Assembly (NCBI GenBank): GCA_016872115.1
Contig: VHBC01000003.1
Span: 111,801-175,800 of the forward strand
Direction of reading: 5' to 3'
DNA: 64,000 bases
DNA from: Sphingomonadales bacterium
GTDB lineage: Bacteria > Bacteroidota > Bacteroidia > Flavobacteriales_D > Crocinitomicaceae
The notes beneath the pieces were generated by a model. That model had not been told where the DNA came from. It saw nothing but the letters and a program-made list of their open reading frames with translations, and searched no databases. Each line of letters opens with the position of its first letter. Position 1 is the first letter of the stretch. The translations under genes were made by a program, and so were the position numbers. Below, one piece after another: positions 25,275 through 34,074 of this stretch.

Positions 25275-26213
25275 TTAGTCAATGCAGATTAGCGTGTCAT
25301 ACCATGGGCTGAAACCTGCCCAAATCCCTAGACAACCGCTGATATTTGATGGTATATTGATGGGGGTGGCATAAGGGTTGTTTGCAGCGTCAAGTTGTGC
25401 AGACTTCCGATCATAATAGTTATAAACAGCTTGGTCCATTTTTGAAAGTTTGACAATGACACTGTCTCCATACCGGTAATAACGGCGAAACTCCTTGAGG
25501 TGGATGCTGTCTTTTCTTTTTAAGGGATTTTGGTAATAAAATTCAATGGCCAGGCCGTTAAAATAGGCATCCGAAAAAATGCCACCGCGGGCTCTCCTGA
25601 AAATAGGGTCCAGTTCTTCGCCAATTTCATTTTGATTGATACGTCGGACTTCCCATCGATAAGCATCTAAAGTCTGGTATGGATCTGTTAAACGCGCCCA
25701 ACTAAAGCCATAGTCTTGTGTTTGGGGCTCTCTTTTCCAATAAAGCGTGTCAAGTTGTGTTGGTGGGGGCAAGTAGGTGCTTCCAGTAAATATCTTGCCG
25801 TCATAGTCGATGAGTAATTGATAGCTTTTATTGACTTCCCCGATGAAGTCCTCTGTTGTGTATACTTCAATGGGCAAAAGCTGCACTTCTTCTAACTCCA
25901 AGCGCAGGATCTCAGCCATACGCTTCTGACTGACAAGAGGAAGCTCATAGATGGGAATGGGGCTCAGTGAAAAGGTATCGTTGTTGCAAATCACATTGAC
26001 ACTCGCGTCATTCACTACGCTATTGAGGTAGGTAGCCAAGCTAACGGTGTCCGCTATATTTTTAGAAAGGGTAAGTAGAACGAGCGGATAACCATTTACT
26101 TCTATTTGACCATCTACTACCAACTGCGGCCCAAGTTGTGGTATATCAATATCCACTTCTTTCGCACAAGACAATAATAGCATTAAGCCGAATAAAAGCG
26201 AGATGATCTTCAT
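25275..26213 (-). CDS. DUF4249-type lipoprotein
   Basis: MKIISLLFGLMLLLSCAKEVDIDIPQLGPQLVVDGQIEVNGYPLVLLTLSKN; lipobox and typical DUF4249 opening. Confidence 0.85.
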   Translation of the reverse strand: MKIISLLFGLMLLLSCAKEVDIDIPQLGPQLVVDGQIEVNGYPLVLLTLSKNIADTVSLATYLNSVVNDASVNVICNNDTFSLSPIPIYELPLVSQKRMAEILRLELEEVQLLPIEVYTTEDFIGEVNKSYQLLIDYDGKIFTGSTYLPPPTQLDTLYWKREPQTQDYGFSWARLTDPYQTLDAYRWEVRRINQNEIGEELDPIFRRARGGIFSDAYFNGLAIEFYYQNPLKRKDSIHLKEFRRYYRYGDSVIVKLSKMDQAVYNYYDRKSAQLDAANNPYATPINIPSNISGCLGIWAGFSPWYDTLICID

Positions 26214-27112
26214 TTTACAATACTTTGTGAGCAGCGTATATTTTTGTCTTCGATTTCAATCACACCTAGGCGCACACCGGCCCAGCCAACTTGATGTATC
26301 CAAACGTCGTGACCACTCGGGTCTTTGACTTTTGTAGGTTCTTCCATAAAAGTATGCGTGTGTCCACCTAAAATAAAATCAATCCCACTTACAACTTTAG
26401 CAAGATTGACATCACTTGGTTTTGAAGGATCTTCGTATTTGTAACCCAAATGGGATAAACAAATGATGAGGTCGCAATTTCGTTCTTGAAGTTGAGTCAC
26501 GACATCACGCGCACTTTGATATGGGTCTTTGAAATGTATGCCTTGAAAATTGCTTGTTGGCACCAACCCATTTAAATTGATCCCGATACCGAAAATGCCA
26601 ATTTGAAAAGGACCTTTTTGAATAATTTGATAGGGTTGAACAATTTCATTCATTGGGGTTTGACCAAAATCGTAGTTCGCATTGACAAATTTGAAATTGG
26701 CATGTTTTTGCGCCTCCATAAATCCTTTGATGCCAATATCAAAATCGTGATTGCCTAAAGTAACAACGTCGTATTTCAATGCGCTCATGACTTTCATTTC
26801 AAGTACCCCATGAAATCGATTGAAATAAGGTGTGCCTTGGAAAAAGTCTCCAGCGTCAAGTAGCAAGACATGTTCGTGATTTTTTCTGAATTCTGAGACC
26901 AGTGCGGCGCGGGCGCTAACCCCCCCCTGATTTGGAAATTTGGTGTGGTTGGCCACAAAAGGATCAATTTGAGAATGCGTATCGTTGGTATGGAGGATCA
27001 CCAATTTAGATGCTTTCTTCTTCGAAGGACCTGCCCTTAACCATTTGGGCAGTGCCAAAACGAGCGGAAGCATGCCAAACCGACCTAATAACTGACGACG
27101 CGTGGTTTTCAT
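26210..27112 (-). CDS. Metallophosphatase (5'-nucleotidase N-terminal catalytic domain) with Tat-like signal
   Basis: TRRQLLGRFGMLPLVLALP leader; LVILHTNDTHSQIDPF, LLLDAGDFFQGTPYFN, TLGNHDFDIG, LSHLGY, GGHTHTF. Confidence 0.92.
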   Translation of the reverse strand: MKTTRRQLLGRFGMLPLVLALPKWLRAGPSKKKASKLVILHTNDTHSQIDPFVANHTKFPNQGGVSARAALVSEFRKNHEHVLLLDAGDFFQGTPYFNRFHGVLEMKVMSALKYDVVTLGNHDFDIGIKGFMEAQKHANFKFVNANYDFGQTPMNEIVQPYQIIQKGPFQIGIFGIGINLNGLVPTSNFQGIHFKDPYQSARDVVTQLQERNCDLIICLSHLGYKYEDPSKPSDVNLAKVVSGIDFILGGHTHTFMEEPTKVKDPSGHDVWIHQVGWAGVRLGVIEIEDKNIRCSQSIVK

Positions 27113-27807
27113 TTGATGTATCTTGATTTGGAATCGAGCAAAAGCACCTTTTGTTGTTTGGCTTCCGCTATAAAAATATCTCTCAACAGCAGGTTGGTTT
27201 CTGTTTTCTCTTCATTTAAAAAAAAAGTCATTTGATCACCTCCATTTGCCAAAAAATCAGAAGTCAGTACCCATATGTATTGGTGTGAAGGTAATAAATT
27301 CGGTATTTGAAGTTGTTGGGCTTTGAATACACAATTTGATATTGGCTCTCCATCACTTTGAAGGAGGTAATTTGAAATGTCTTTCAATTTAGAAACAGGT
27401 AAATGTACCCAAACGACTCTATTATCAAAAGGCATGAGTTTGTAGAAGTCTGCGAGCGTCAAATTTCCTGCGCCAAAAGAAGCCCTCAGCCCTCCGGTAT
27501 TTAGCAAGCAAATGACAGGTTCTGATAAACGTACATTACGCGTTTGTGATATGAATACGGCATCAGCGCACCAATTCATAAGGTTTGAACATGGGCGGCT
27601 TAAGACAAGGGGTTCTGAAGTATGGGCAATGATTTCATTAAATTCTAGTCGTATGGTATCTTGATAGGCGCGCAGAAAAAAAAGGCCGGTGGTGTCTTGC
27701 GTTTGTCTATTGACCACTTCGTACGAGATAGTGGCGCTTTGGTTCAAAAAAAGAGAGCAAGCCGTTAGGCTTGCTCCAATGATTAGATATGTAATGTATT
27801 TTAACAT
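27109..27807 (-). CDS. 5'-nucleotidase C-terminal domain lipoprotein
   Basis: Lipobox SLTACS; NLMNWCADAVF, VICLLNTGGLRASFGAGNLTLADFYKLMPFDNRVVWVHLP, LTSDFLANGGDQMTFF. Confidence 0.9.
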   Translation of the reverse strand: MLKYITYLIIGASLTACSLFLNQSATISYEVVNRQTQDTTGLFFLRAYQDTIRLEFNEIIAHTSEPLVLSRPCSNLMNWCADAVFISQTRNVRLSEPVICLLNTGGLRASFGAGNLTLADFYKLMPFDNRVVWVHLPVSKLKDISNYLLQSDGEPISNCVFKAQQLQIPNLLPSHQYIWVLTSDFLANGGDQMTFFLNEEKTETNLLLRDIFIAEAKQQKVLLLDSKSRYIK

Positions 27808-30068
27808 TATTCGATAACAAACTCACGCTTGACTTGACCATATGGCGTGTCAACAGTCAGTATATAAACGCCTGCTTTGTATTCTGAAATTGGCAAGACG
27901 AGAACAGGTAATTTGGTATTTTGCGCTGCTCCAATCTGACGACCTTGCATATCTGTGATTTGGTAAGCAGTAATATCCAAGCCATTGACTTGCGCATACA
28001 AAGTTTGCGAGGCAGGAACAGGGAATACAGAGAAGTTCTGATCTAATTTATTTTCAAGACCCATGTCGCATACGAGATAGCTCATGTTTGAGAAATTGAT
28101 ATGGCAAGCAAAATAAGCAGAATCGATGAAAGGATTGCGGTTTCCTTGAAGAACAGCCGCATATTCGTGTCGTGCGATTTCGTAGTTGTCAGGGGCATCG
28201 GCAAAATGCCAAGTTTTCAATGATTCTTGGCTTTGGTTGGCAGGAAGTTCCCATGTATTTCCTGCTTGTCCGTTGTAACAGGTTGCCATGTAGAATATGG
28301 AGCGCGCAGCGTTTCCTTTTTGCTCTGGACGTGGCTCATAGACTAATTGATTCCCACTGTATCCGACGCTTCCTTGTAGGTAAGTGAAGACGACGTTCCC
28401 ATCGATATCCATGAGTGGAAGGTTAGATCGGGGCGTATTGGCTTGTTGGAGGTTGGTTGGCCATAGGTTGTGTTGATCGTTGTATTCTGGCTTTTCTGGA
28501 TTATCGCAAGGGAAGGTTGGCATCCAAGAATGCGAGTAGGTGTGCTCTCTAGAATAACCTACAGCTGTCCAAGTGAAAGGATCGTTGAATACTTTGCGCT
28601 CACCAGTGTATACACATTCCACGTATGATTGCCCGTTGGTGGTATCGCGGACCTCGTATTGGTTCATCATGGTGGTGAGGTAGTTGTAATAACTGATGGA
28701 GGTATGCGGATTAATCAAAGCACTAAGGTCCGTTAAAAAGCTACTTGAACCTGAAATGATACCGTTATAGTAGTTTCCAATTTGGCTTCCTGTGCTAGTT
28801 ACATTGCCAGTAGCCGGGTTCATGGTACGGTAATTTTCGTAGCCAGCCGGTCCATTGAATGCATATACTGCAAAATGATAATTAGTATTTGCCTCTATAT
28901 GACGTGGTGTAAAACCTGTACCTGAACCGATATATGCTACTTTGGCGTTACCGATTACATCACCTCGCTTGTAAGTAGTTCCGTCGATAGGAAGACCAGC
29001 AACAGCACCACCTTGACGCCAAAGCACGATGTATTTTTCAGCACTGACAGAGGTGTATTCGCCGGATAAAGAATAAGGTTTGATGGTCGGGAAAGTCAAA
29101 GAACTTGGATTATTGGATGGTTCTGTTGCAAGGTTGTTATTGCCGATTCCGTATAAATTAATGATGTAAGGGTTTTCATCGGTGTCATCGTTGGCTATAG
29201 AAATGGTAGCAAGTCGAGATCCGGTGCCGCCGGGGATGAAATTCAGCGTGATGTTTTGGCTGCTCGTTGCACCAACTACAACATTGGCGTTACAGGAATA
29301 ATCTGCAGCATTGGCTCCGCTGAAAGTAGCACCGGAAACCGTTAGATTCTGAACGCCATAGTTTTCGATTGTGATTGTTGTATTGGCTGCTGTTCCTACA
29401 ACGTAAGTACTACCTGATAGGATATCGTTGCCATTGATTTTGACATTGATTTCTCGGGCTGGAGCCACATAAGTGAAAAAATCTTGGGTACTGCGCGGTA
29501 CCAACTGGTAGTTTGCGTTAAATTGACCGAGTAGTCCGATGATACTGATTGGTCCGGTTGGTATGGCTGAGCCATCGATGTTGGTGCTTCCATTGACTCG
29601 GACATCAAAGGTGTTGGAACCATCAAAAACTTGCACAGTGCTGTTTCCAGTGGCAAAACTGCCTGTTTGCACAAAATTGACGTTATCGAGACGAATGAGC
29701 TGACCTTCCAAAGATTCTCCGGCGGTCGGTATAGATATAACCAAAGGAGCTGGTGGATTCACGGCCTGACCGTGGTTTGTAAAGCTATTTGTGGGAGATA
29801 ATTCGAGTAGACCGTTGAATTCAAACAAAACACCTGTTGCGGTTATGGAATCACCTTTTTGTATGGTATTGAGGTTGCTGCCATAACAGGCAATACCGGC
29901 GGTGCCGTCTTGCATGTATCGGATCGGGCCGAGTTCACTTCCATTGGTCACAACACCACTAACAGTTACGGTTTGACCGATTCCTAAATTGCGTACTTGT
30001 GCAATTGTTTGTGCAAATACTTGTTGGCTAGAGGCCACTACGATGAGTTGTAAAAAGAGCTTTTTCAT
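27807..30068 (-). CDS. Secreted endonuclease I-family nuclease with N-terminal OB-fold-like/choice-of-anchor modules and T9SS C-terminal sorting domain
   Basis: YSREHTYSHSWMPTFPCDNPEKPEYNDQHNLWPTNLQQANTPRSNLP nuclease motif; C-terminal FSVFPVPASQTLYAQVNGLDI...AGVYILTVDTPYGQVKREFVIE. Confidence 0.88.
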   Translation of the reverse strand: MKKLFLQLIVVASSQQVFAQTIAQVRNLGIGQTVTVSGVVTNGSELGPIRYMQDGTAGIACYGSNLNTIQKGDSITATGVLFEFNGLLELSPTNSFTNHGQAVNPPAPLVISIPTAGESLEGQLIRLDNVNFVQTGSFATGNSTVQVFDGSNTFDVRVNGSTNIDGSAIPTGPISIIGLLGQFNANYQLVPRSTQDFFTYVAPAREINVKINGNDILSGSTYVVGTAANTTITIENYGVQNLTVSGATFSGANAADYSCNANVVVGATSSQNITLNFIPGGTGSRLATISIANDDTDENPYIINLYGIGNNNLATEPSNNPSSLTFPTIKPYSLSGEYTSVSAEKYIVLWRQGGAVAGLPIDGTTYKRGDVIGNAKVAYIGSGTGFTPRHIEANTNYHFAVYAFNGPAGYENYRTMNPATGNVTSTGSQIGNYYNGIISGSSSFLTDLSALINPHTSISYYNYLTTMMNQYEVRDTTNGQSYVECVYTGERKVFNDPFTWTAVGYSREHTYSHSWMPTFPCDNPEKPEYNDQHNLWPTNLQQANTPRSNLPLMDIDGNVVFTYLQGSVGYSGNQLVYEPRPEQKGNAARSIFYMATCYNGQAGNTWELPANQSQESLKTWHFADAPDNYEIARHEYAAVLQGNRNPFIDSAYFACHINFSNMSYLVCDMGLENKLDQNFSVFPVPASQTLYAQVNGLDITAYQITDMQGRQIGAAQNTKLPVLVLPISEYKAGVYILTVDTPYGQVKREFVIE

Positions 30069-30071
30069 GTG

Positions 30072-32810
30072 TTAAAATTGTATTCCTAAATTGATATTGA
30101 AGCGCAAGCCTTGGCCAAACATAACTGTTGCCGAACGCGCATCGAATTGATCATAGATGCCATTTGCATTATTGATGGCATCCGAGATAAAAGAAGTATT
30201 GAGTAAATTGGTTATGGCAAAACCAGCACTAAATTGCTTGTAACGGTAGCCGCCAAAAAGATTAACGAGGGAGTAAGCAGGTATTTTCCAGGAATCGCGT
30301 CCACCATTGATGCCTTGAAGTGAGAAGGGATCAAAGTTGGCGTAATAGCGATCAAAGTACTGGCCCTGAATTTTGATGTAGCTATTCTTAAAGGGTTCAT
30401 AGCGAAGTCCTGCAGCCAACGCCGTTTGAGCGGCATCACCAACGTGAACGCCTTTGGCATCGAAGGTAAATTCTAAAGAATCGTATTGCGGAATGAAGAC
30501 GGTTTTGCTTGAGTTCCAAATCCAGTTACCAATAGAAAACATGAATTCGAAGGAAAGTTTTGAATTGATTTCCCAAGCGATGTCGATCTCTTGACCTATG
30601 TGAATGGCATCCATACCGTTAATGTTTACACGTATGAATTCTGTTGGGTCATTAGGGTCTGGGACGGCAACACCATAAGGAAAAGGTTTGTTTTTCCAAT
30701 TCGTAAAGTAGGCGTTGTAATTGACGCCAAAATGTTTGTTGGTGTAGTGATAGCCACCCTCTGCAGCGTAAATGATTTCATTGACGATTTCTCCAAAGAA
30801 AGAATTGGTATTGTTGTCTATGACATTCGAAAATTGAGGGGTGCGATTGAGGTAACCCAAATTGCAATAGACATCTTGGTATTTCCCAATTTTGTGTCTT
30901 AGACCACCTTTAATGGTAAGGCCTGGGATGTATTTCCAAGGTGTTTGGTAGTAGCTAAGACCAGCATAACCGGCATGGTAAGTTTGGCCGTTGTATTGGA
31001 TGGTGTCTAAAGCACCAATTCTGAGAATGGTGTCGCCGAGGTCCAACACTTTTCGTTGGAAATAGTCAATGCCTTTGTAACCGTTGAGAATACTCGACAT
31101 ATTAATGAACCAATTAACGTGCTCGCCATTGTGTTCAACTTGACCAAAAAGACCTGCATAAGTTACCACGCCATCGCGATCCGCATTGAAGGTGTTTTTG
31201 GCAATTTTGTCCCCGACGCGTTGCATGGGGTCGGCATCATTGAAATCGGCGGTGCTTACAAAATAGTCGGCACCGAGTAAGTTGGTGATCACTTGGTAAT
31301 GCCTGCCCTCGTAGTAGCGAAAATCAAGTCCACCAGAAAAATTGGTTTTTTTCGAGTATTGATAATTGAATTGCCCAAGATAACCCACCCAAAAATGGTT
31401 GTTCATACTCGCCAACAAAATTTGACTTGCCTTGATTTCCGTGGGCGAGTAGAGTGGGTCAATATTAGGTGTACCGAATAAAGAATTGACTGTGTTTTCA
31501 GTAATCATTTGGTCCCAATCGATATTGGAATTGCTGTCTCTAAGTACAGCAGAAGAGTTGAAAATACTCGTTCCGCCGCCGCGGCCTATAGAGAGATACG
31601 CTAAATTGGAGATATCGAGTTTGTCGTTGACAGACCAAAAATCTTTTAAAGTAATTTGAGGTTTGTTGTAAAAATTACGACGTTCGTTGAGAATTTCTTG
31701 TTGACCTGCATCATTTGTAACATAGCCCCAATGTTGATTGTAGCGGATGCCCATGTCGTTTAAGGCCATTGTTGAATCATATGGAATTCCCAATTGTTGC
31801 GATCGGGAAGCGTCCCAATATTGAATGCCCTGATTCCAAGATCTCTGACCATGCTGCTGCGGGGCTGCGAATGCGGAAAGTGTGATCAGATGTTTTTCAA
31901 GGCGTTTGGAGATTTTGGTGTAACCGAAGAAGCCTTGTGTTGGTGTGCCATCAACCCATCCTTGACCTTGTTTGTAGGAGGCAGAAAAAGTGAGTCCCCA
32001 ACCAGATTTAGTCATGCCGGTGTTGTACGATAGCGAACTGCGCAGAAAATTCCCCGTTGCGTATTCTTGTTTGAAACTCCCGCCTTTTTTGGTACCCACC
32101 CCTTGTGTGATGATATTGATGGTGCCTCCGATTGATGGCATGGCAATTTTGGTAGCACCCAAACCGCGTTGAACCTGCATTTGGGACGTGATAGCGTCTA
32201 AACCAAACCAGTTTGACCAGTAAACAGCGCCATTCTCCATGTCATTTACAGGAACGCCATCGATCATGACACCTACATTTCGTTGGTCAAAACCGCGCAC
32301 ATTGATTCGCGCATCGCCATCGCCGCCTCCTTGAGTAGTTGCGTACACGCCTGCTGTTCCGTTCAATAACATCGGAAGATCGCGTGAGGCAAGTTCTTCG
32401 GTGATTTTTTTGGTGTCAATTTTAGTGACAGCAACCGGTACGTTTTGTCCTTTGACTAAGTTTCCTATGACGCGAATTTCACGAACTTCTTGAGTCGGTC
32501 GGATCGTAAAGTTCTGGGTAAAACTAGCTTGACTAAGTATTACGTTATGACTAACGGTATCGGTCAGGGGTAAGGAAAACACGATTTTGTATTGACCGTA
32601 AGGAACACCTTCAAAACGGTAGATGCCGTTATCGTCGGTGGCTTTGCGTGCGATGATCTGTGTTGCATTACTTAACGTGATTTTCGCACCAGCAACTGGG
32701 ATGTCTCCTGGTGTCATAAGTGCAACACCGGAAATAGAACCTTTCTGCTGACTAAGAGCCAACCTTGGCAACGCTACAAAGAGTAACGCAAGACAACAAA
32801 AACGCAACAT
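30072..32810 (-). CDS. TonB-dependent receptor with N-terminal carboxypeptidase-like domain
   Basis: GSISGVALMTPGDIPVAGAKITLSNATQ..., plug NVRGFDQRNVGVMIDGVPVNDMENGAVYWSNW, C-terminal barrel FGGYRYKQFSAGFAITNLLNTSF. Confidence 0.93.
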   Translation of the reverse strand: MLRFCCLALLFVALPRLALSQQKGSISGVALMTPGDIPVAGAKITLSNATQIIARKATDDNGIYRFEGVPYGQYKIVFSLPLTDTVSHNVILSQASFTQNFTIRPTQEVREIRVIGNLVKGQNVPVAVTKIDTKKITEELASRDLPMLLNGTAGVYATTQGGGDGDARINVRGFDQRNVGVMIDGVPVNDMENGAVYWSNWFGLDAITSQMQVQRGLGATKIAMPSIGGTINIITQGVGTKKGGSFKQEYATGNFLRSSLSYNTGMTKSGWGLTFSASYKQGQGWVDGTPTQGFFGYTKISKRLEKHLITLSAFAAPQQHGQRSWNQGIQYWDASRSQQLGIPYDSTMALNDMGIRYNQHWGYVTNDAGQQEILNERRNFYNKPQITLKDFWSVNDKLDISNLAYLSIGRGGGTSIFNSSAVLRDSNSNIDWDQMITENTVNSLFGTPNIDPLYSPTEIKASQILLASMNNHFWVGYLGQFNYQYSKKTNFSGGLDFRYYEGRHYQVITNLLGADYFVSTADFNDADPMQRVGDKIAKNTFNADRDGVVTYAGLFGQVEHNGEHVNWFINMSSILNGYKGIDYFQRKVLDLGDTILRIGALDTIQYNGQTYHAGYAGLSYYQTPWKYIPGLTIKGGLRHKIGKYQDVYCNLGYLNRTPQFSNVIDNNTNSFFGEIVNEIIYAAEGGYHYTNKHFGVNYNAYFTNWKNKPFPYGVAVPDPNDPTEFIRVNINGMDAIHIGQEIDIAWEINSKLSFEFMFSIGNWIWNSSKTVFIPQYDSLEFTFDAKGVHVGDAAQTALAAGLRYEPFKNSYIKIQGQYFDRYYANFDPFSLQGINGGRDSWKIPAYSLVNLFGGYRYKQFSAGFAITNLLNTSFISDAINNANGIYDQFDARSATVMFGQGLRFNINLGIQF

Positions 32811-33872
32811 TTAGCGAATAATTACTTTGTGTAAAGTCTGCTCGCCAGCGTTATTAGTTAGGCGAAGGAAATACACACCTTGTAAGTTATTGAGATCGAG
32901 TTCGACAACCGATTGAGTTGCAGAGATTTGTAACTCTTTAACTTGCTGTCCAAGTGCTGAAATAACTTGGATTTTTCGCAAATCGTTTTGTGTTTTAACG
33001 AACACTAAACCGTTGCTTGGATTAGGATAAACACTAGGTAACAATTTAGCTGCTTCGTTGACGCTGATATTGTTGCAATTGCATTCGTGACTACCCAATG
33101 AAGACCAGTTTCCGTCGAGGATGGGATTTCCGCTGGTTCCAAATAGGGTGTCGCCATTTGCGTCAAGGCGCACAATGACAGGTGGAATGCTGTCCCATTC
33201 AAGAAGTGGATCGAAGAAAGATGGATTGCTAGTTTGACCTTTAAGGATGGCCGGCTTGCGAATCATACTGTGGTCTTTGGTGATGAGCACACCCAAACCT
33301 GTGCTGTAAGGAAATTGTGAAGACCAAGCGCCGTCGTTACCTGAACTGGTTCCGGTTTCATTGGCAGGGTTTTCACCAATTTTACCAAAAACGTCAACAA
33401 TGGCAAATCCAGTAACGTTTGTGGCGTTGATCACGGATGTTGGAGAAGCAGGAAGAGAGCCTTTTGCTAACAAAACAGCATCGTTACCATTCCAATACCA
33501 TGCATTGGAAACGTTGTAGTCTTGACAATAAAAGCCATCGGCACGCGCTTGAAGTGAATCCCAAACTGGCGCTTCTTGACCGGTTCCGTTGGGATCTAAT
33601 TTTTGAATAACGCCTACATAAACTCCTTTTGCAGGAATTGTACCGCTTAGTTGAATGGAATTAGCGACAGTTGCCGAAGTGGCGCCGTTAGAGTAGCGGC
33701 TAACGAAATAACCCGATAAATCAATAGGATTGTTTGTAGGGTTGTAAATCTCTAGCGCTTTATTGTTAGACCAACCTTCGACATATTCCGAAATGAAGAG
33801 TTCGTTACAGGTATTTTGCGCAAATGAAGACATTGCCGCAACAAAAGATAAATAAAGTAAAGTTTGCTTCAT
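32811..33872 (-). CDS. Lamin-tail-domain secreted protein with T9SS type A sorting domain
   Basis: Signal peptide, CNELFISEYVEGWSNNKALEIYNPTNNPIDLSGYFVSRYSNG (LTD), C-terminal VYPNPSNGLVFVKTQNDLRKIQVISALGQQVKEL. Start re-placed at MKQTLLYL. Confidence 0.88.
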   Translation of the reverse strand: MKQTLLYLSFVAAMSSFAQNTCNELFISEYVEGWSNNKALEIYNPTNNPIDLSGYFVSRYSNGATSATVANSIQLSGTIPAKGVYVGVIQKLDPNGTGQEAPVWDSLQARADGFYCQDYNVSNAWYWNGNDAVLLAKGSLPASPTSVINATNVTGFAIVDVFGKIGENPANETGTSSGNDGAWSSQFPYSTGLGVLITKDHSMIRKPAILKGQTSNPSFFDPLLEWDSIPPVIVRLDANGDTLFGTSGNPILDGNWSSLGSHECNCNNISVNEAAKLLPSVYPNPSNGLVFVKTQNDLRKIQVISALGQQVKELQISATQSVVELDLNNLQGVYFLRLTNNAGEQTLHKVIIR

Positions 33873-34074
33873 GATGTTAGTTTTGTTTAACTGACAATCA
33901 GCTGTATTTAATTGATGTTTACTTATGGTTTCGGCCATTTGAGGCGTCAAGGAGGTCATAAATAAACTAGAACAAAATTAAGTATTTTCTATGAACAGCG
34001 AAAAACTTTTTGTAAAACTAAAATGAATTTATTGTGAAGTGATAATGCCTCAAATTTCACACGAGAAATCTACT

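Follow-up and report, generated by a model that had tools for sequence, protein, structure and literature searches.

A surface LTD protein, a TonB-dependent receptor and an exported nuclease form a conserved cassette in Crocinitomicaceae and other Bacteroidota, with a probable role in DNA acquisition

The conserved unit within a run of six minus-strand genes of a Crocinitomicaceae bacterium is smaller than the run itself. It is a triad that consists of a surface LTD protein, a TonB-dependent receptor (TBDR1) and a T9SS-exported nuclease. Taking the evidence together, we consider it probable, with reasonable rather than strong confidence, that the run is a surface DNA (nucleic-acid) acquisition locus that is nutritional at least in the Crocinitomicaceae. 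The individual protein families were already known; what is new is that receptor/nuclease cassettes are exchangeable and that they are connected with a phenotype of DNA uptake. The run lies in a stretch of 64,000 nucleotides of contig VHBC01000003.1, referred to here as the window, from a genome of 2.22 Mb that is 99.99% complete. The nearest relatives in a collection with named entries are MAGs that carry the labels Crocinitomicaceae or Flavobacteriales, Fluviicola and Brumimicrobium being more distant, and the bacterium presumably comes from fresh water.

RESULTS

Organization of the six-gene run

The six ORFs occupy positions 25275-33872 in the order LTD, TBDR, EndoI, 5NTC, metallophosphatase and DUF4249 (Table 1), as a first-pass annotation of the same DNA had described. 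Judging from the coordinates, neighboring genes lie 0 to 3 nt apart (LTD/TBDR, 0 nt; TBDR/EndoI, 3 nt) or overlap by 1 to 4 nt (EndoI/5NTC, 1 nt; 5NTC/MPase, 4 nt; MPase/DUF4249, 4 nt). Pfam bears out the family names that had been given to the six genes (LTD and Por_Secre_tail, Plug and CarboxypepD_reg, Endonuclease_1 with a T9SS tail, 5_nucleotid_C, Metallophos, and DUF4249). Gene 3 additionally has DUF5689 at its N-terminus and a choice-of-anchor D region. The mechanical ORF of the LTD gene begins at 33959, but the LTD proteins of relatives start at the residue matching 33872 (MKQTLL..), so the latter end, which the first-pass annotation had used, is right. Scans for sigma-70 promoters and terminators gave matches at chance level only. 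The sequence TAATTTTG at 33973-33980 on the minus strand fits the Bacteroidota -7 promoter consensus and precedes the probable start of the LTD gene by approximately 100 nt; it was spotted by eye and may be due to chance.

Table 1. Features of the six-gene run and their positions in the window
Feature	Position	Strand	Basis
Gene 1, LTD protein ending in a T9SS type A sorting tail; putative partner that binds DNA at the surface	32811..33872	-	PF00932 E 3e-13, PF18962 E 2e-12
Gene 2, TBDR1, TonB-dependent receptor and putative importer (CarboxypepD_reg, Plug and beta barrel)	30072..32810	-	PF07715, PF13620
Gene 3, T9SS-exported nuclease: DUF5689 N-terminus, choice-of-anchor D, Endonuclease I catalytic domain, sorting tail	27807..30068	-	PF04231 E 1e-21, PF18942 E 9e-13, TIGR04183
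RNA hairpin, first codons of gene 4	27754..27777	-	stability vs synonymous recodings; covariation
Gene 4, C-terminal (substrate-binding) half of split 5'-nucleotidase, lipoprotein	27109..27807	-	PF02872 E 4e-12
Gene 5, metallophosphatase (N-terminal) half of the split 5'-nucleotidase, with a Tat-like RR signal	26210..27112	-	PF00149
Gene 6, DUF4249 lipoprotein, lineage-specific addition	25275..26213	-	PF14054 E 6e-26

The LTD-TBDR1-nuclease triad is the conserved unit

The genes for the LTD protein, the receptor and a nuclease are linked in all 116 long loci, comprising 53 of 53 loci from the family, counted where at least 4.5 kb was available on either side of the receptor, and 63 of 63 from the order and class, a set that was chosen via receptor matches, in some cases for a nearby DUF5689 match, and is not a blind sample. 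The synteny of receptor and nuclease on which the first-pass annotation had staked its reading is thus present in relatives. The order of the triad is far from chance: every locus of sufficient length has it, and close packing of the genes is seen again in relatives (median spacing, -1 to 42 nt). The receptors linked to a nuclease form one clade (SH-aLRT 90), and nuclease-less paralogues fall outside it. The six genes had also been regarded as a unit, and here only the triad stands, its order being constant in all long loci; the six-gene combination is not constant. DUF4249, found in 10 of 53 family loci and 4 of 63 order/class loci, is an optional accessory confined to a subclade. Since most relatives lack it, the earlier suggestion that DUF4249 aids import is unsupported.

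Three further observations concern the receptor loci. A shorter locus (L194, with 3.5 kb downstream) has a 472-aa ORF matching no named kind at the nuclease position. TBDR1-like receptors without LTD protein or nuclease are found in the window's genus and in Riemerella (L019:8063-10420, L020:8232-10613, L230:8103-10457 and L220:7553-10159). Public MAG records including L040, L041, L051, L059, L064 and L067 harbor a receptor 64-70% identical to that of the window's lineage, yet are titled, for example, Polynucleobacter, Chryseobacterium gleum or Chitinophaga pinensis; the titles of these and other such records are probably unreliable.

Surface proteins and receptor

The LTD protein matches the NCBIfam model of the ExeM N-terminal region (E 6e-18) and has no catalytic domain; catalysis resides in the neighboring Endonuclease I protein. 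The products of genes 1 and 3 are both T9SS cargo, each with a C-terminal type A sorting domain (TIGR04183, above the cutoff in both). Gene 3 scores 77.8 bits against Endonuclease_1 (PF04231), for which the curated cutoff is 25, matches endonuclease I in the PDB (1oup/1ouo), and encodes the sole Endonuclease_1 protein of the host genome. The REH catalytic motif of Endonuclease I is intact in 119 of 119 relatives. DUF5689 is found in the window cluster only as the N-terminus of this nuclease, with no separate DUF5689 lipoprotein, and a fold search with the nuclease model returned matches dominated by Ig/fn3-like domains, none of them assigning a fold to DUF5689. TBDR1 carries a plug domain (PF07715), and its modeled fold resembles those of structurally characterized TonB-dependent transporters (best match, E 8e-24). 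The model has a pLDDT of 69.5 with a poorly modeled plug, and the transporters that it matches have many substrates; it is therefore silent on the cargo.

Nuclease folds are exchanged beside a constant receptor

The nuclease position of the triad is occupied by Endonuclease I in some lineages and by a PLD-type nuclease, whose HxK(x4)D motif is intact in 21 of 21 sequences, in others. On the receptor tree, a quick tree with SH-aLRT support only, the nuclease fold changed at least four times with the receptor clade unchanged, and eight changes are counted for the DUF5689 part and five for the 5'-nucleotidase linkage. A constant receptor and LTD protein accompanied by some nuclease, with the folds swapped, is what would be expected if the receptor handles nuclease products, and this is our main ground for a nucleic-acid reading. 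The linkage of receptor and nuclease and the exchange of folds in the same slot support a putative nucleic-acid substrate for the TBDR1 locus, as the first-pass annotation had supposed; the cargo would be DNA or oligonucleotides.

Whole triads appear to have moved as well. The LTD-TBDR1-EndoI triads of six loci from the family (L143, L145, L146, L155, L156 and L157) group with receptors of other families, and their flanks (DPP4, CitSyn and 5'-nucleotidase) are unchanged, which suggests that these triads were probably replaced by transfer at the same site. Within family f1 the TBDR1 label requires three changes on the tree, again suggesting replacement of entire triads.

A second type of cluster excludes and replaces the first

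Genomes without TBDR1 frequently carry a different cluster, designated type 2, which consists of a secreted EEP nuclease (PF19580), a receptor (TBDR2) and one to three DUF5689 proteins. Type 1, the TBDR1 cluster, and type 2 are found together in none of 232 class genomes (53 versus 61 carriers, 14 overlaps expected) and in none of 149 order genomes (87 versus 31 carriers, 18 overlaps expected). The corresponding p values, 7e-9 for the class and 7e-15 for the order, ignore shared ancestry; alternation of the two types is also seen within families f1, f15 and f36 and within genera g13 and g29.

In genus g13 the exchange took place in situ, between DPP4-CitSyn on one side and 5NTC-MPase on the other, L214 carrying type 1 and L109 and L110 type 2. 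Between L214 and the latter two, identity is 69-71% for DPP4, 61-64% for the metallophosphatase half, 40-44% for the C-terminal half and 22% for the receptors. The reverse case is found in family f3, where a type-1 triad lies beside an EEP gene and further type-2 flanks. Two type-2 clusters (L124 and L182) also harbor a DUF5689/PLD nuclease, a kind otherwise found in type-1 loci, and are possible intermediates.

The window receptor belongs to the TBDR1 clade, apart from the TBDR2 clade, and a search for TBDR2 in the window's genome at E 1e-60 gave no match. With a TBDR2 profile, TBDR1 was the best receptor in 10 of 10 type-1 genomes, at 84-134 bits versus 44 or less for the next. Receptor kinship was nevertheless rejected as proof that the two types are equivalent: in the reverse direction, TBDR1-like paralogues that have no nuclease score above TBDR2 in Riemerella and others. 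As this reverse search fails, we do not claim an exclusive sister relation between TBDR1 and TBDR2. Some receptors lacking a nuclease are closer to TBDR1 than is TBDR2, so the cargo cannot be read from receptor kinship alone.

The type-2 pair and natural transformation of Riemerella

In a transposon screen of Riemerella anatipestifer, RA0C_RS04915 (outer membrane, pfam13620) and RA0C_RS04920 (DUF5689, DUF5017) were essential for natural transformation; the partnership of the outer-membrane protein with the DUF5689 protein was presented there only as a speculative model (PMC8459023). Genome G435 has the order RecA, DinB, SdhB, SdhA, SdhC, ComEC, a 145-aa protein, carboxylase, EEP, TBDR2 and DUF5689, in which RecA, DinB, Sdh and carboxylase were named by eye from the sequences and ComEC by search. 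This order reproduces the spacing of tags RS04870, RS04895, RS04915 and RS04920, the domain content agrees, and the type-2 lipoprotein belongs to an NCBIfam family named for M949_1556, a Riemerella tag. Because gene-by-gene order, domains and NCBIfam family agree, we hold with moderate to high certainty that the TBDR2/DUF5689 pair corresponds to the published pair. Transformation is lowered in tonB mutants of Riemerella, which the authors partly attribute to iron (PMC8383284). The lipoprotein family also affects antigenicity and pathogenicity (PMC12566107), so the transformation defect could be indirect.

The first-pass annotation missed this second system. Since type 2 replaces type 1 in situ and its pair is required for transformation in Riemerella, the nucleoside scavenging that had been proposed is only one of two live readings.

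A split 5'-nucleotidase adjoins the triad

Genes 4 and 5 had been described as a 5'-nucleotidase C-terminal lipoprotein and a Tat-like metallophosphatase. The domains are as named, but the domains and PDB matches indicate that the two genes are halves of a single split 5'-nucleotidase rather than separate enzymes. Gene 5 has its best PDB matches exclusively among 5'-nucleotidases (2z1a, E 4e-39), and its PDB matches at E <= 1e-5 (37 sequences) nearly all belong to the 5'-nucleotidase/UshA/cyclic-nucleotide phosphodiesterase group. Its motifs HTNDTH, DAGD, GNHD, SH and GGHTH are all intact, and a Tat-like RRx[FL] signal is present in 84 of 94 relatives. Gene 4, the sole PF02872 (5_nucleotid_C) protein of the host genome, has the GG-R, PFxN and GGD motifs and a lipobox. 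Measured against the UshA family, both domains score above the Pfam cutoffs and the metal motifs are present, with two genes overlapping by 4 nt in place of the single chain.

The pair is linked to the triad in 50 of 53 family loci and 28 of 63 order/class loci. In most other families the pair is absent near the triad; the linkage is mainly found in Crocinitomicaceae, plus two loci of a distant family (L226 and L227). The split enzyme adjoins both type-1 and type-2 systems. Three close relatives (L034, L035 and L036) have the triad without the pair at the same site. A gene for a PhoD-type phosphatase is situated downstream of the type-1 cluster in six relatives (L025, L061, L064, L069, L070 and L080), of which L025 and L070 may represent one genome region.

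An RNA hairpin at the start of gene 4

The first codons of gene 4 can form a hairpin, GGAGCAAGCC-TAAC-GGCTTGCTCT, followed in the window by the T-run CTTTTTTTGA. Among sequences encoding a G-A-[GS]-x-x-A-C kind of motif, with recoding conditioned on that motif, the hairpin surpasses synonymous recodings in stability (p < 0.05) in 32 of 33 distinct relatives, versus 3 of 70 control lipobox regions, and in none of 500 shuffles was covariation as high. It is kept on both sides of the g13 exchange (L109 and L110, which carry type 2 there, have it too) and is absent from those 5'-nucleotidase genes at other sites that were checked. Rfam has no match to it. A role as a DNA uptake sequence was rejected, as the arms are not overrepresented in the window. 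Because the hairpin sits just past the nuclease stop codon, partial termination or mRNA processing between the cassette and the nucleotidase genes is plausible.

DISCUSSION

Proposed function and alternatives

In the mechanism that we propose, extracellular DNA would first be held and cleaved at the cell surface by the two proteins with T9SS tails (LTD and DUF5689/Endonuclease I), after which TBDR1, powered by TonB, would bring the fragments into the periplasm. Endonuclease I leaves oligonucleotides and no enzyme of the operon makes mononucleotides, so another exonuclease, encoded outside the operon, would have to trim the fragments further to mononucleotides. The split, membrane-side 5'-nucleotidase would then dephosphorylate these in the periplasm to nucleosides and phosphate. 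We infer that the six genes work together in a single pathway, whose main use in the window's bacterium would be nutrition and not gene uptake. Nutrition is favored in Crocinitomicaceae because of the 5'-nucleotidase pair, the PhoD genes beside the cluster in six relatives, and the Pi-induced LTD-Endonuclease_1 proteins of F. johnsoniae (PMC8115612).

The equivalence with type 2 makes DNA import for transformation a second live reading, although we regard it as unlikely that the locus is primarily transformation machinery. TBDR1 would then be the outer-membrane DNA translocator of lineages without TBDR2, the nuclease would nick or trim DNA for entry, as the surface nucleases EndA and NucA do in Gram-positive bacteria, and the 5'-nucleotidase would recycle the degraded strand. 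This accords with the fact that type 2, exchanged in situ with type 1 and never co-occurring with it, holds the pair essential in Riemerella, where tonB genes are also needed (PMC8383284). The linkage to phosphatases, on the other hand, points to nutrition. The window genome encodes ComEC, but so do 230 of 232 genomes, whereas type 1 or 2 is found in about half; ComEC does not track them, and its co-occurrence is uninformative as a test.

Two other readings dispense with DNA import. It is highly improbable that this is a general phosphate-starvation locus for organic phosphorus. The nuclease, the 5'-nucleotidase and, where relatives have it, PhoD would then together scavenge phosphate extracellularly or in the periplasm, and a different phosphorylated compound would be the cargo of TBDR1. 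PhoD does lie beside the cluster in six relatives, and F. johnsoniae has Pi-responsive LTD-Endonuclease fusions (PMC8115612), but the partner that TBDR1 keeps throughout the class is a nuclease and not a phosphatase. Least probable of all is an ordinary iron or cofactor receptor placed beside a surface nuclease by genome history, the two sharing no function and the nuclease clearing biofilm or trap DNA. The receptor model and weak family matches do resemble siderophore, haem and B12 receptors, but every long locus retains the linkage, in many families and despite rearranged surroundings, and nuclease folds have been swapped in the same position.

Going beyond acquisition of DNA as a nutrient by the window's bacterium, we tentatively raise the possibility that type 1 (LTD-TBDR1-nuclease) and type 2 (EEP-TBDR2-DUF5689) are interchangeable TonB-dependent DNA importers and constitute a general outer-membrane DNA entry route of Bacteroidota, used for feeding and for natural transformation and operating without a type IV pilus. 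How DNA crosses the outer membrane of Bacteroidota is not settled, and a second widespread receptor/nuclease cassette that excludes and replaces the Riemerella kind of pair provides concrete candidate DNA receptors in dozens of genera, so that the question of food versus genes becomes testable. Bacteroidota degrade extracellular DNA in sediments (PMC8289736), and the cassettes may offer abundant aquatic members a route to recycle phosphorus from dissolved DNA. In the searchable literature we found no paper describing the triad and no experiment on a type-1 locus.

Comparison with known systems

The run differs from a SusCD-type locus in that none of the six proteins matches SusD; its lipoprotein is DUF4249, which is missing in most relatives. 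The PUS/PusCD systems of F. johnsoniae likewise couple TonB-dependent import to phosphoesterases, and the EndA nucleases Fjoh_4721 and Fjoh_4723, both induced on phosphate depletion, contain LTD and Endonuclease_1 fused in one protein (PMC8115612). However, PUSI and PUSII have a SusD-type partner that is absent in the window, and the EndA genes are listed there as orphans, with no receptor (PMC8115612). The LTD protein corresponds to the N-terminal region of ExeM and, unlike the ExeM/NucH nucleases, is devoid of a catalytic domain. Genes 4 and 5 together hold both domains and the catalytic and substrate motifs of UshA/CD73-type 5'-nucleotidases, but the enzyme is divided between two neighboring genes whose export signals differ (lipoprotein and Tat-like).

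Compared with the Riemerella pair, the receptors are only approximately 22-25% identical and fall in separate clades. There, DUF5689 (with DUF5017/choice-of-anchor J) is a separate lipoprotein, whereas in the window it is fused to the nuclease; the Riemerella nuclease is of the EEP type and divergently encoded, and no LTD protein with a T9SS tail is present. In both systems, a receptor with a CarboxypepD_reg-like N-terminus lies beside a DUF5689 protein and a secreted nuclease, the receptors can be aligned (702 columns, E 1e-62), and in genus g13 the Riemerella type and type 1 have been swapped at one chromosomal site.
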